A stretch of DNA of 64,000 nt, taken from Paludisphaera borealis. Its GTDB lineage: Bacteria; Planctomycetota; Planctomycetia; Isosphaerales; Isosphaeraceae. The notes below the pieces were generated by a model. The model worked only from the letters and a program-made list of their open reading frames with translations. It was not told the origin of the DNA and made no database searches. A program made the position numbers and the translations under genes. The stretch is taken from assembly GCF_001956985.1 (NCBI RefSeq), contig NZ_CP019082.1:6758001-6822000 (forward strand), in the 5' to 3' direction. This document shows positions 1,174-8,156 of this stretch, piece after piece. The number at the start of each line of letters is the position of its first letter. Within the stretch, counting starts at the first letter, position 1.

Positions 1174-2892
1174 ATGCAGTACAACCCGGCCAACCCGCTG
1201 ATCGTGCAGGGGGATCGGACGATCCTCCTGGAAGTGGACAATCCGTTGCACGCCGAGGCCCGCGATACGATCGCGCCCTTCGCCGAACTGGAGAAGAGCC
1301 CCGAGCACATCCACACGTATCGGCTGACGCCGCTTTCGCTCTGGAACGCGGCCGCGGCCGGCGTCAGCGCCGACGAGATGATCGCGGGCCTGGAAACCTA
1401 CTCGAAGTTTCCGCTTCCGCCCAACCTTCCGGCCGACCTCCGCGACATGGTCAGCCGGTATGGGCGGGTGAAGCTTCAGCGGATCGACGGCCAGCTTCGG
1501 CTGATCACGACGGACCAGCCGCTCATCGAGGAGCTTTCGCGCCAGCGCGGGGTTCGCGAGTACCTGGGCGAGCGGCTCGACGCCGTCAGTTTCGCCGTCG
1601 AAGACCTCGACCGCGGCGTACTCAAGCAAGGGCTGATCGCCGTCGGCTACCCGGCCGAAGACCTCGCCGGCTACGCGCAAGGCGCCGCCCTCGCGGTCGA
1701 GCTTCGCGAGACGATGCGATCGGGCGGCAAGTTCGTGGTTCGTGACTACCAGCGCGGCGCCGTCGACACGTTCCACGCCGGCGGCGACGTCAAGGGGGGC
1801 TCGGGCGTGATCGTCCTGCCTTGCGGCGCGGGGAAGACCATCGTCGGCATCGCGGCCCTGGCGGCGATCAAGACCGAGACCCTCATCCTGACCACCAGCA
1901 CCACCGCCGTCGAGCAGTGGAAGCGCGAGGTTCTCGACAAGACCGACCTCGACGAGTCGCAGGTCGCCACCTACACCGGCGACTCCAAGGGGATCGCCCC
2001 GGTGACCCTGGCGACCTACCAGATCGTCACCTACCGACCCAAGAAGGACGGCGACTTCCCGCACTTCGGCCTCTTCAACCAGCGCGACTGGGGCCTGATC
2101 ATTTATGACGAGGTCCACCTCTTGCCCGCGCCCGTCTTCCGGATCACCGCCGACATCCAGGCGCGGCGACGCCTCGGCCTGACCGCCACCCTCGTCCGCG
2201 AAGACCATCGCGAGGAAGACGTCTTCAGCCTGATCGGCCCCAAGAAGTACGACGTCCCCTGGCGCGTGCTCGAATCGAAGGGCTGGATCGCCGAGGCGCA
2301 GTGCCACGAAGTCCGGCTCGGGCTGCCGCCGGCGCTCCGCATGGAATACGCCATCGCCGAGTGGCGCGACAAGTTCCGGCTGGCCAGCGAGAGCCCGACC
2401 AAGGACGACCTCGTCGAACTGCTGCTCGAGCACCACAATCACCCTGAGGATCGCGTGCTGGTGATCGGCCAGTACATCAAGCAGCTCCGCCGGATCTCCG
2501 AGCGGTTCGACATCCCGATCATCACGGGCTCGACCACGAATTCCGAGCGTGAAGACCTTTACGGCCGGTTCCGCGCCGGGGCGATCCGCCGGCTGGTGCT
2601 GTCGAAGGTCGGCAACTTCGCCATCGACCTGCCCGACGCCAACGTGATGGTCCAGGTGTCGGGCACGTTCGGGAGCCGACAGGAGGAGGCGCAGCGGCTG
2701 GGCCGAATCCTCCGTCCCAAGGAGGGCGAGCGGCCCGCGTGTTTCTATACACTCGTAACGCGCGACACCCGCGAGATGGACTTCGCGCACCATCGCCAGC
2801 TCTTCTTGACCGAGCAAGGCTACAGCTACGAGATCGTCGACGAATCCGAGCTTTCCGCGCGGCTGCTGGCCGCGTCGGAACCGGCCGGATGA
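1174..2892 (+). CDS. XPB/ERCC3-type DNA helicase
   Basis: This is a 572-residue superfamily 2 helicase of the XPB (RAD25/ERCC3) family, an ATP-driven DNA translocase used in nucleotide excision repair. An N-terminal domain (about 1-190) precedes the motor. Seen motifs are Walker A LPCGAGKT, the DEVH box in IYDEVHLLP, the TAT motif followed by the XPB-specific RED signature in LTATLVRED, and motif VI in EEAQRLGRILRPK. The start has AAGGAG eight bases upstream. Two same-strand genes follow closely and look like XPB partners. The gene resembles the free-standing XPB of actinobacteria and archaea rather than UvrB or RecG. The helicase family is certain; the repair role is inferred. Confidence 0.93.
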   Translation: MQYNPANPLIVQGDRTILLEVDNPLHAEARDTIAPFAELEKSPEHIHTYRLTPLSLWNAAAAGVSADEMIAGLETYSKFPLPPNLPADLRDMVSRYGRVKLQRIDGQLRLITTDQPLIEELSRQRGVREYLGERLDAVSFAVEDLDRGVLKQGLIAVGYPAEDLAGYAQGAALAVELRETMRSGGKFVVRDYQRGAVDTFHAGGDVKGGSGVIVLPCGAGKTIVGIAALAAIKTETLILTTSTTAVEQWKREVLDKTDLDESQVATYTGDSKGIAPVTLATYQIVTYRPKKDGDFPHFGLFNQRDWGLIIYDEVHLLPAPVFRITADIQARRRLGLTATLVREDHREEDVFSLIGPKKYDVPWRVLESKGWIAEAQCHEVRLGLPPALRMEYAIAEWRDKFRLASESPTKDDLVELLLEHHNHPEDRVLVIGQYIKQLRRISERFDIPIITGSTTNSEREDLYGRFRAGAIRRLVLSKVGNFAIDLPDANVMVQVSGTFGSRQEEAQRLGRILRPKEGERPACFYTLVTRDTREMDFAHHRQLFLTEQGYSYEIVDESELSARLLAASEPAG

Positions 2893-2966: not shown

Positions 2967-3191
2967 ATGACACGAGCGATCGCCCGGATTCCTGTCAAGC
3001 TACATAAGAACGTGACGTTGATACGCACGTCCGAGCCCGTGCTCGCCGAAGAGTTACTGGCCAGGAAGACGCTCGCGCGGCTAATCCTCGCGAGGCTCTC
3101 CGAGACGATCCTGCTGGTCAAGCCCGACGAGGCCGACGCGGCCGTCGACGAGCTGAGAAAAATGGGCCAGACACCCCGGATCGTGCGCTGA
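2967..3191 (+). CDS. 74-residue p8/Tfb5-like small protein
   Basis: This small protein lies 74 bases after the XPB gene and 18 bases before the p52-like gene. The predicted order is strand (VTLIRTS), helix (PVLAEELLARKTLARLIL), strand (ETILLVK), helix (DEADAAVDELRKMG), short strand. Length and order match eukaryotic p8/TTDA/Tfb5, a roughly 70-residue TFIIH subunit that pairs with the C-terminus of p52 and stimulates XPB. The C-terminal 60 residues of the neighbouring 771-residue protein have the same layout, as p52 does with p8. No strong ribosome site precedes the ATG, so translation may be coupled. The assignment rests on topology and context, not strong identity. Otherwise it is a conserved-looking hypothetical protein. 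Confidence 0.7.
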   Translation: MTRAIARIPVKLHKNVTLIRTSEPVLAEELLARKTLARLILARLSETILLVKPDEADAAVDELRKMGQTPRIVR

Positions 3192-3209: not shown

Positions 3210-5525
3210 ATGGCCTCGAATTCCAGCATCAACGCAACGGTCCACCGGCCGACGGCCGATCCGAATTCCCCGAACGCGAACGCGAACGCGAACGCCGACC
3301 CGCGTTTCACGTTTCGGTCGTTGCTGGCCAGACACCCGTTCGCCACGCTCCGGGCGATCGCCGCGCGTCGGGGCCTCGAATCGGAGGCCGTCCGCGCCAG
3401 CACGCTGGCCGGCGAGCTGACCGACGAGCTTGATTCGCCGGCCGTCCTCTCGGCGATCCGGGCCGATCTGGACGACGACGCCCGGCTGGCCTTGTCGCTG
3501 TTCGGCCTGACCGACTCGCCGAGCTGGCCGTTGTCGGGCCTGAAGCACGCGCTGTCGGTCCTGGGGGCGACGGCCGAGAGCGTCGTCGTCGGGCTCCTCG
3601 AGCGCGGGCTGCTCGCGCTTGACCCCGGAGTCGAAGCCGGGCCCGGGCAGCCGTTCGATTTCGCCGCCCGCATGGCTTCGGTCGGGTCGGACGAGTTGGA
3701 GCTTTGGGTCCATCCGGCGCTGTCGCACGGGGTGCGCATCCGGCCGCCGTCGCGGGCCGTCCTGCCGGCCGCCGGTCCGGTCGGCCAGATCCGCGAGCCC
3801 GACGGCCTCGAACCGATCTTGCGACTGGCCGCCTTGTGGCAGCGGACCGGCGCCGAGCCGCTCCGCCGAACCCAGCAAGGAACCCTTTACAAACGCGACC
3901 GGGAACGAATCGAGGAAGACCCCGTCCTCTCCGGCCCCGTCAGCGACGCACTCGCGGAACTCCCTGCGATGGCGACGCTCTGGCTCGGCCTGGCTCGACG
4001 CGTGGGCCTCGTCCATCTGGACCCGGGCGGCGAATTCTTCCTGGCCGCGTCCGCTGAATTCTGGACCGAAAACGCGGTCCACCTGCCGCAGATGATCGCC
4101 TCCGGCTGGCTGGGCTTGCGCACCTGGCTCGAATGGGCCGAACCGTCCGCGGAAGCGCCGTCGGCCGGCCTTCCCCTCGTGTTCCTTCGCCCCGCCCTCT
4201 TGCTCTGGCTGGCGAGCCTGGCCCCCGACACCTGGGTGACGCTCGACGACCTGGCCGAGCACTTGACCGCCATCGCCCACGGATGGGACCGGACGGCGTT
4301 CACCGAAACTCCCGGCGCGTCCGCGGCGACCGCCCGCCGCGCCTCGAAGTCGGCCGCCAAGCGAGGACCGCAAGCGCCCCGCGAATCCCCGGCCAGTCGC
4401 GCGCTCGGCCGTGTTTTGCTCGGCGGGGGATACGCGATGGGCCTGGTGCGCGTGGGAGAAGAAAAATCCACCGACCGCAGGGCCGTCCAGCTCACACCAC
4501 TGGGGCGTTACGTCCTGGGCCTCGGCCCGCCGCCACCGCCGCGCCCGACGTTCGAGCACTTCCTGTTCGTGCAGCCCAACCTCGAAGTGATCGCCTACCG
4601 GCAGGGGCTCACCCCGCCCTTGATCGGCCGGCTCAGTCGGTTCGCCTGGTGGACCAAGATCGGCGCGGCGATGGAGTTGAAGCTGACGCAGGAATCGGTC
4701 GCGCTCGGCCTCGAATGGAACCTCTCGCCCTCGCTGATGCTCGAGATCCTGGCACGGCACAGTCAGCGCGCGCTTCCGGGGAGCGTGAAAGACGCCATCG
4801 ACCGCTGGGCCAGCCGCCGCGAGCGCGTCACGATGTACACGGCCGCCACCCTCATGGAGTTCAGCGCGCAGGCCGACCGCGACCGCGCCGCGACCGCGTG
4901 GACCGAAGACGGCGAGGGCAAGGCGTTCATCCCCGTCGGCGATCGGTTTCTCCTGGTCGAGAACGCTCAGCACGTTCCAACCAGCCGGATCAGCACCACG
5001 GCGGTGCGCGACTATCGGCTTCCTCCCGAGCGCTGCGTCTCCGTCGAGGCCGACGGCGTGACGCTCGCGCTCGATCCGTCGCGGTCCGACCTTCTGATCG
5101 ACGCCGAACTGGCCCGATTCGCCGACGAAGAACCGACCCCGGACGCCGATCGCCCAGGCGGATCGCGACCGTCGGCGCGGCGGTTCCAGGTCACGGCCGC
5201 GTCGCTGGCGCGGGCCTTCGACATCGGCATGACCGCGGCGCTGCTATCCGACTGGTTCCAGAGGCGGACGGGCGGCGACCTCCCGCCCGCCGTCGGCCTG
5301 ATGGTTCGGCCGGCCTTGCTTGGAGCCAAGCCGTGGAAGGCCCAGCGGCGGCTCGTGCTCAACGTCCCGACCGCCGAGCTGCTTGAGGGGGTCCTCCAGC
5401 ATCCGGCCACGCGCTCGCTGCTGGGAGATCGGCTCGGCCCGGTCTCGGCCGTCGTCCCCGAAGACTGCGTCGATCAGCTCCGGGCCGCCTTGAAAACGCT
5501 GGGCGTCGAGATCGACGTTTCTTGA
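3210..5525 (+). CDS. p52/Tfb2-like XPB partner (helicase-associated domain protein)
   Basis: This 771-residue protein has no helicase motifs of its own. An N-terminal helical, winged-helix-like region (about 30-130) is followed by a variable middle. At about 445-600 lies a domain of the type annotated as XPB/Ssl2 N-terminal or Helicase_C_3, beginning HFLFVQPNLEVIAYRQG and including KLTQESVALGL and DAIDRWASRRERVTMY. From memory this aligns well with the clutch region of human p52 (FIVVETNYRLYAY, VTRESVQQAI, DQIRLWELERDRLRF). The last 60 residues form a p8-like strand-helix-strand-helix unit. GAGGAA precedes the ATG. A comparable gene sits beside XPB in actinobacteria. The likely role is to anchor or regulate the XPB motor. 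Confidence 0.75.
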   Translation: MASNSSINATVHRPTADPNSPNANANANADPRFTFRSLLARHPFATLRAIAARRGLESEAVRASTLAGELTDELDSPAVLSAIRADLDDDARLALSLFGLTDSPSWPLSGLKHALSVLGATAESVVVGLLERGLLALDPGVEAGPGQPFDFAARMASVGSDELELWVHPALSHGVRIRPPSRAVLPAAGPVGQIREPDGLEPILRLAALWQRTGAEPLRRTQQGTLYKRDRERIEEDPVLSGPVSDALAELPAMATLWLGLARRVGLVHLDPGGEFFLAASAEFWTENAVHLPQMIASGWLGLRTWLEWAEPSAEAPSAGLPLVFLRPALLLWLASLAPDTWVTLDDLAEHLTAIAHGWDRTAFTETPGASAATARRASKSAAKRGPQAPRESPASRALGRVLLGGGYAMGLVRVGEEKSTDRRAVQLTPLGRYVLGLGPPPPPRPTFEHFLFVQPNLEVIAYRQGLTPPLIGRLSRFAWWTKIGAAMELKLTQESVALGLEWNLSPSLMLEILARHSQRALPGSVKDAIDRWASRRERVTMYTAATLMEFSAQADRDRAATAWTEDGEGKAFIPVGDRFLLVENAQHVPTSRISTTAVRDYRLPPERCVSVEADGVTLALDPSRSDLLIDAELARFADEEPTPDADRPGGSRPSARRFQVTAASLARAFDIGMTAALLSDWFQRRTGGDLPPAVGLMVRPALLGAKPWKAQRRLVLNVPTAELLEGVLQHPATRSLLGDRLGPVSAVVPEDCVDQLRAALKTLGVEIDVS

Positions 5526-7826: not shown

Positions 7827-8156
7827 ATGGGTCACGACGAACACGAACACGACGAACACGAGCATGACCACGATCACGACCACGAGCACGACGTCGAAGA
7901 GGCCCTGGAAGAGGCGCTCGAGCTCGACACCCAGAGCCAGATCTTCCTGGAGATGAGGCGTCAGAACCTGGATCTGCTGCGGATCGCCTCGGAGGTCGCC
8001 GGCTACGGCGGCAATCACGGCCCGCTCAAGCCGGGCGACGTCCGCAACGCGCTGCGGAACATCTGGGACGTCTTCGCCGAGTTCTATTCGTGGGTCGACC
8101 CGGAAGAGGACGAGGGCGACGATGAAGAGGACGAAGGTGACGAGGACGAAGAATGA
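7827..8156 (+). CDS. His/Asp-rich small protein, function unknown
   Basis: This 109-residue protein has three parts. The first 21 residues are almost all His, Asp and Glu (MGHDEHEHDEHEHDHDHDHE), which suggests metal binding. Residues about 23-85 form a helical core (EALELDTQSQIFLEMRRQNL, NALRNIWDVFAEFYSWV). The last 20 are nearly all acidic. AAAGGGAGAG lies about 13 bases upstream of the ATG. No known domain is recognised. It lies between ald and mtnA, 49 bases before mtnA, so it may share a transcript with the latter. A nickel, zinc or cobalt chaperone or store is one possibility; the tails could instead be plain low-complexity sequence. Confidence 0.75.
   Translation: MGHDEHEHDEHEHDHDHDHEHDVEEALEEALELDTQSQIFLEMRRQNLDLLRIASEVAGYGGNHGPLKPGDVRNALRNIWDVFAEFYSWVDPEEDEGDDEEDEGDEDEE

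Follow-up and report, generated by a model that had tools for sequence, protein, structure and literature searches.

A candidate bacterial counterpart of the XPB-p52-p8 arm of TFIIH encoded beside XPB in Paludisphaera borealis

In TFIIH, the clutch of p52 recruits XPB via the homologous N-terminal domain (NTD) of the helicase (PMC6422496), and p8 binds the p52 C-terminal domain (CTD), which has the same fold, and contacts HD2 and ThM of XPB (PMC7708078). The pseudo-symmetric p8/p52-CTD heterodimer, which an earlier sequence-only reading of the DNA studied here had invoked, is indeed real in TFIIH (PMC11855273; PMC7708078). p8, p52 MD2 and the NTE and damage-recognition domain (DRD) of XPB are described as a ring around XPB's RecA domains (PMC7708078), and Tfb5 has been reported to stimulate Ssl2 in repair (PMC8184850). 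Mutations of the p8 gene cause trichothiodystrophy A (PMC3630102). In archaea, XPB has a modulating partner, the nuclease Bax1 (PMC13024598). A 2025 review places p62, p52, p44, p34 and p8 exclusively in eukaryotes (PMC11855273), and a 2012 study of mycobacterial XPB states that homologs of p44 and p52 were not found in bacteria (PMC3353954). Among the matches listed in a literature search of titles and abstract openings, with preprints and most subscription journals outside its scope, none claimed a bacterial p52 or p8. What is known is PF13625 as a domain of XPB and its neighbours; what we did not find stated there is the p52 and p8 identity.

Here, we propose, with a probability of about 0.7, that three genes of Paludisphaera borealis, located in a 64,000-nucleotide stretch of DNA analysed as a whole (the window), amount to a small prokaryotic counterpart to TFIIH's XPB arm, that is, of the XPB-p52-p8 module (Table 1). 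The computations give homology among the small protein, the last domain of its neighbour (CTD2) and the XPB DRD, homology among two clutch domains of the neighbour (CL1 and CL2) and the XPB NTD, and a conserved gene order, with the small protein closest to Tfb5 and the neighbour closest to p52.

Table 1. Genes and domains of the XPB cluster, in window coordinates, with the basis of each assignment (hhalign values from the wider alignments).
Feature	Coordinates	Strand	Basis
XPB-type DNA repair helicase, 572 aa	1174..2892	+	NCBIfam NF045503 repair_heli_XPB, 854.7 bits vs cut-off 610
XPB N-terminal (clutch-type) domain (NTD), aa 3-97	1180..1464	+	PF13625 at aa 9-135; hhalign CL1 97.5, CL2 94.1
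DRD of XPB (damage-recognition domain), aa 98-168, one more copy of the p8-type domain	1465..1677	+	hhalign small 96.0, CTD2 97.2; 0/100 shuffles each
p8/Tfb5-like small protein, 74 aa	2967..3191	+	profile, fold-ranking and codon-position evidence
p52/Tfb2-like neighbour, 771 aa	3210..5525	+	PF13625 65.4 bits vs cut-off 34.2; p52 PDB match; Foldseek, joint model
Neighbour helical/winged-helix part, aa ~51-439	3360..4526	+	p52 rows of VIA-align start at model residues 126-130; limits approximate
Neighbour clutch domain CL1, aa 448-538	4551..4823	+	VIA-align to XPB chain 6ro4_A; hhalign human p52 clutch 95.7
Neighbour CTD1, aa 539-600, probable counterpart of the p8-binding p52 CTD	4824..5009	+	8ebu_D alignment; human p52 CTD top-ranked but weak, 10.7
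Neighbour second clutch-type domain CL2, aa 601-702	5010..5315	+	hhalign CL1 97.8, XPB NTD 94.1
Neighbour CTD2, aa 703-771 (the end singled out in the sequence-only reading)	5316..5522	+	hhalign small 96.9; VIA-align to yeast Tfb5 3dom_B

The XPB gene, whose product belongs to the NF045503 family, is followed after 74 nt by the small gene and, 18 nt further on, by the gene of the 771-aa neighbour. Helicase_C_3 (PF13625) passes its cut-off in the neighbour, occurs also at the N-terminus of XPB, and has a match in each of the 29 aligned neighbours (E up to 1). No helicase motor was identified by Pfam in the p52-like or the small protein. The translation of the small ORF and the neighbour's terminal sequence (LVLNVPT...LRAALKTLG) agree with those quoted in the sequence-only reading. 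The 74-aa protein itself has no Pfam or NCBIfam match at E 10. Codon position 3 holds 233 of the 345 nucleotide differences between the small ORF and seven relatives, a pattern from which we conclude that the gene is real, and the protein is matched at E up to 1 in 31 of 40 genomes, its own included (in G033 only at 0.37). The codon-position pattern and the conservation together rule out an orphan or spurious ORF.

Elsewhere in the window, positions 7827-8156 encode a 109-aa protein with a very high content of His, Asp and Glu. UvrB is encoded in the same genome (G000:C1:4873671-4875617), so bacterial excision repair is present beside the XPB cluster. The profiles of p44 (Ssl1; PF04056) and p34 (Tfb4; PF03850) gave no match at E 0.01 in this genome; in the controls, PF03850 matched nothing and PF04056 matched only in E. 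coli, below the cut-off.

It had been claimed from the letters alone that the small protein and the end of its neighbour are two copies of one fold. To look along the neighbour, we divided it into 24 segments of 90 aa (the last of 81). A profile of 32 small proteins gave a probability of 95.9 against the last segment (E 5.4e-9, for this single comparison) and 79.2 against the one overlapping it, and the other 22 gave 16.3 or less. Among 18 segments of XPB, only the two bearing the DRD responded, with 56.9 and 60.0, and the DRD rose to 96.0 with wider alignments. In these wider comparisons CTD2 scored 96.9 and the internal domain CTD1 a weaker 29.9, the maximum of 35 control pairs being 3.1. 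Not one of 100 column shuffles reached the observed score for any of the three p8-type pairs or for the small protein with CTD1; CTD1 against CTD2 or the DRD lies within noise, with 4 and 12 of 100 shuffles reaching the score. One control was unclean, in that the reversed XPB DRD gave 36.5 with the small profile, so a lone middling probability is untrustworthy.

Searches of other genomes give the same picture. With the small protein alone, phmmer matched the neighbour's end in one relative (L054, domain E 0.028). In the P. borealis genome itself, the small profile matched the small gene, three weak places (E 0.145-0.48) and nothing else, with neither the neighbour's end nor XPB recovered; the homology is therefore visible when profile is compared with profile and in genomes other than this one. 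Across 294 genomes of the phylum, 24 places were found, namely ten separate small ORFs, three C-termini of p52-like proteins (L070, L071, L075), three XPB DRDs (L073, L078, L083) and eight weak places left unassigned. The XPB profile, in turn, extends in a single match over clutch and CTD of the L075 p52-like protein (XPB 4-140, E 4e-12), and likewise those in L071 (E 4e-9) and L070 (E 2e-7). These profile values, together with the modelled secondary structures (β-α-(α)-β-β-α-β for the small protein and β-α-β-α for the neighbour's end, in keeping with the sequence-only reading), support the view that the small protein and the last ~70 residues of the neighbour are homologous, sharing one fold by common descent. 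The claimed likeness thus stood, and the count of two did not: the XPB DRD is a third copy, and the internal neighbour domain is weakly related as well.

The wider alignments comprised 44 small proteins, 29 neighbours and 106 XPBs. The first (A6) was made without the weak small ORF of L153 (E 4e-4); the neighbour alignment without L042, L053 and L058, in which the neighbour was frameshifted, cut and not found, respectively; and 52 of 80 XPB loci, with the window row, entered alignment A7. With them, the domains fall into two families, a clutch type comprising the XPB NTD, CL1 and CL2 (mutual hhalign 94.1-97.8) and a p8 type comprising the small protein, CTD2 and the XPB DRD (96.0-97.2). The 771-aa neighbour carries two clutch-CTD modules, CL1-CTD1 and CL2-CTD2. 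It has the domain order of p52/Tfb2, i.e. a helical/winged-helix part, a clutch and a CTD, and its first clutch is, as in p52, homologous to the XPB NTD. A plain p52 it is not, given the extra module CL2-CTD2 (5010-5522). This module resembles XPB NTD-DRD, which it matches in the own genome at E 0.008, and might compete with or replace XPB's own NTD-DRD.

How close are these proteins to their eukaryotic namesakes? In a search of the whole PDB, the 32-protein small profile brought up Tfb5 as its five top matches (E 0.0011-0.0018), the next entry standing at 0.29; with the wider profile of 44, Tfb5 drops to E 0.037-0.06, below a chance match to uS15 at 0.018. The profile of 29 neighbours placed human p52 first, at E 3e-6. 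We then compared TFIIH stretches with 13 domain profiles, a comparison that sharpens the PDB matches and is not independent of them, since the stretches are the parts already aligned there. The yeast Tfb5 stretch fitted the two small-protein profiles best (93.9 and 92.1), followed by the XPB DRD (47.8); CTD2 gave 3.8, and no shuffle in 100 reached the 93.9. The human p52 clutch stretch fitted CL1 best, and the p52 CTD stretch fitted CTD1 best, weakly. Owing to the PDB searches and these preferences, the small protein is, judged by its residues, the counterpart of p8, and CL1-CTD1 that of p52.

Other searches were less responsive. The Tfb5 family PF06331 does not match the window protein even at E 10, and in none of 21 genomes is its cut-off attained; it matches 5 of the 32 small proteins (best E 0.006), and its one sub-threshold match among the 21 genomes is the small gene (G010, E 0.064), with 2 of 14 control genomes also giving matches below the cut-off. 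PF03849 (Tfb2) likewise has no match to the window protein at E 10; it matches 10 of the 29 neighbours at E up to 1 (best E 1.5e-5), the scores given being at most 22.4 against 34.5 bits. With both cut-offs missed, neither protein is to be filed in those Pfam families as drawn. The likeness to p8 and p52 that had been suggested from the sequence is thus upheld by residues and fold ranking and not by the Pfam thresholds. Against the PDB, the XPB DRD profile matched no TFIIH chain, and neither did that of CTD2, which drew designed TIM barrels instead, down to E 3e-10; we take the latter as a chance likeness to idealised sequences. Single window proteins gave weak matches or nothing in phmmer searches of the PDB.

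The small gene and its neighbour were modelled as one chain of 852 residues, with the intervening TGA read as a residue (pLDDT 89.3, pTM 0.77). When this joint model was compared by Foldseek with 350,542 PDB chains, ranks 1-40 were all TFIIH, pre-initiation or excision-repair complexes, those among them also named by the neighbour-profile search being p52/Tfb2 or XPB, and the first unrelated entry came at rank 41 (E 0.77). VIA-align places CL1 on residues 72-164 of 6ro4_A, a chain taken as XPB because it stands among XPB chains (Z 13.2, rmsd 1.4, 91 residues). Neighbour aa 183-597 (model residues 264-678) fall on p52 128-458 (8ebu_D; 285 residues, Z 12.5, rmsd 9.6 over mobile domains), with p52 residue 458 on model residue 678, i.e. 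within CTD1. CTD2 (aa 709-765) was aligned with yeast Tfb5 (3dom_B; Z 6.2, rmsd 2.3, 56 residues). The small protein modelled alone is less well defined (pLDDT 77.5, pTM 0.57); searched against the same chains, it finds Tfb5 at ranks 1-3 and 5, with weak E of 0.11-0.17 (0.11-0.12 for ranks 1-3). In VIA, its Z with Tfb5 is 6.0-6.4, three unrelated entries rank higher, and yeast and human p8, the p52 CTD (8ebu_D 389-459, Z 5.2) and unrelated ferredoxin-like domains are tied.

One difference between the two models concerns the proposed interface. Modelled by itself, the small protein has coil at residues 8-16 (block pLDDT 62 for residues 1-10 and 77 for 11-20); in the joint chain with the neighbour, this segment is a strand (76 and 95). 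The two models were built on different alignments. The simplest reading of these predictions is that the first strand of the small protein pairs with the neighbour. It should be noted that AlphaFold2 may know TFIIH.

With the same parts as in TFIIH found in one gene cluster, we propose a motor, an adaptor and a brace. XPB would be the motor. The 771-aa p52-like adaptor would dock through CL1 on the homologous XPB NTD, and the N-terminal strand of the 74-aa p8-like brace would pair with a CTD of the adaptor, most likely the internal CTD1, to give a pseudo-symmetric heterodimer. This heterodimer, we infer, would act as a brace on XPB's second RecA domain and modulate ATPase and DNA translocation of the helicase, probably in repair, so that adaptor and brace would stimulate XPB and position it on DNA.

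Which CTD the brace would use deserves consideration. The pairing drawn in the sequence-only reading was with the extreme C-terminus of the neighbour, CTD2. This domain is by far the closest to the small protein in sequence within the neighbour (96.9 vs 29.9 for CTD1), and it is the part structurally aligned with Tfb5. The closest relative of a protein need not be its partner, however, and the p8-binding CTD of TFIIH corresponds to CTD1 in the p52 profile match, in VIA-align and, weakly, in the stretch comparison. The p52-CTD counterpart is hence probably internal (aa ~539-600) and its former placement at the neighbour's extreme end probably wrong, which makes a p8-like pairing likelier at CTD1. 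CTD2, moreover, is part of a module that looks like XPB NTD-DRD, and may for that reason do another job. We regard dimerisation with CTD2 as rather unlikely.

The fetched loci, the window not counted, hold 44 separate small ORFs. XPB lies upstream on the same strand, at most 700 nt away, in 36 of them, and a p52-like frame follows downstream within 600 nt in 41. As for the exceptions, XPB lies about 1 kb away in L039 and L049, the locus is near a contig end in L050 and L055, and the order is small-neighbour-XPB in L153; a downstream neighbour is missing in L053, L058 and L135 (contig end). Three relatives carry a divergent second pair of small and p52-like genes (L059-L061), the fetched stretch there having no XPB ORF, and two of the genomes with such pairs (G009, G019) also carry the ordinary cluster.

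The small protein could alternatively be a free-standing copy of the XPB DRD that attaches on its own, perhaps as a homodimer, to DNA or to XPB, with no complex of the p52-p8 type. Its homology to the DRD (96.0) would fit, as would the match of its model to 9pd3_A 171-293 (Z 5.1), taken by numbering as a DRD-like domain of XPB. Such a copy would leave unexplained a strand that is coil alone and forms with the neighbour in the chain, a gene that accompanies the neighbour no less often than XPB (41 vs 36 of 44), and the divergent pairs that keep small protein and neighbour with no XPB ORF nearby on the fetched stretch; we hold it to be quite improbable. Finally, convergence of these domains on a common β-α-β-β-α fold with no shared descent, the small protein resembling TFIIH by chance, to which one might attribute the tie of unrelated acyltransferase and procarboxypeptidase domains with Tfb5 in Z, the TIM barrels drawn by CTD2 and the 36.5 of the reversed DRD, is highly implausible when 0 of 100 shuffles reach the profile matches and the small profile finds p52-like proteins and XPBs of other genomes.

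We turn to where the parts of the proposed XPB-p52-p8 type module occur. The phylum was sampled evenly with 294 genomes. XPB is matched at E up to 1e-50 in at least 117 of them (over the cut-off in at least 112), the p52-like profile has a match in at least 108 (in G127 and G129, at least, only within XPB), and a separate small ORF is present in at least ten, all ten with XPB. Among the best 80 XPB loci of named genomes, the fetched stretch carries a p52-like ORF (E up to 1e-8) in 33, and separate small ORFs occur in Gemmatales and other planctomycetes (L104, L105, L106, L113, L141), in Anaerolineae (L164), in Troglogloeales (L135) and, weakly, in an unclassified bacterium (L153). A p52-like ORF is near XPB in three of four Thorarchaeota loci, the fourth (L146) being a short contig. 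In these three (L148, L159, L161), the p52-like genes (profile E 2.6e-25 to 2.5e-28) lie 1.7-3.6 kb from XPB, and a similar ORF of 95-116 aa, with no match to the small profile, lies in between.

A long form of the p52-like protein, having at least 304 residues between the start of its first clutch and its end, was found in 35 of 35 scored proteins beside a small ORF and in 8 of 26 without one (Fisher p 1.2e-9, with the threshold set after looking and relatedness uncorrected); as most small-ORF sequences come from related planctomycetes, these statistics are not of independent events. Left out of the 35 were L042, L053, L065-L069 (the locus stopping within the neighbour) and, in L164, the second of the p52-like proteins, which is 557 aa long with 247 residues following its clutch. 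Rows with no clutch match went unscored (L042, 273 aa; L122, 865 aa; L132; L155, 780 aa), and L171 and L172, alike with equal lengths, were both counted. In several p52-like proteins without a small ORF (L155, L166, L117), the domain after the clutch is itself small-like. A tandem pair of p52-like genes follows XPB in four Chloroflexota loci (L110, L122, L154, L155), and the first protein of the pair ends in a small-like domain in L110, L122 and L155 (profile E 3e-8 to 2e-7; 0.007 in L154). In these, p8 looks as if fused to the p52-like protein.

Regarding origins, we lean slightly towards the view that the XPB-p52-p8 arm is not a eukaryotic invention: bacteria have the gene cluster, and Thorarchaeota (Asgard) have a p52-like gene near XPB. 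On this account p8, the p52 CTD and the XPB DRD would derive from one ancestral domain, and the XPB NTD and p52 clutch from another; it would follow that the XPB N-terminus and the p52 C-terminus are duplicates of one clutch-DRD module, with p8 as a detached half. A bacterial XPB-p52-p8 set, if true, would identify the partners that bacterial XPB has been lacking, provide a system of three proteins in which to study the control of XPB by p52 and p8, and allow phylogeny to test the origin of TFIIH.

The comparison with the known systems can be put as follows. First, the small protein is like p8 (TTDA, GTF2H5, Tfb5; PF06331) in size (74 aa vs 71 in human p8) and in the order of strands and helices, with a match over 50 residues at 24% identity; p8 is the best-ranked solved fold for its model, at a weak E, and each is a companion of a p52-like protein and XPB. 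It differs in being bacterial, in falling below the Pfam cut-off, and in a conserved N-terminal stretch (consensus RxPVKLHR) ahead of the shared part. Second, the neighbour has, like p52 (GTF2H4, Tfb2; PF03849, PF18307), a helical/winged-helix part, a clutch homologous to the XPB NTD and a CTD; it differs in its length of 771 aa, in its second clutch-CTD module of the XPB NTD-DRD kind, and in lying below the Tfb2 cut-off. Third, CL1 and CL2 are homologous to the NTD of XPB (Ssl2, ERCC3), and CTD2 and the small protein to its DRD, whereas Pfam sees the helicase motor in neither neighbour nor small protein. Lastly, archaeal XPB-Bax1 is alike in pairing XPB with a modulating partner; Bax1 is a nuclease, and the neighbour, by Pfam, has only Helicase_C_3.
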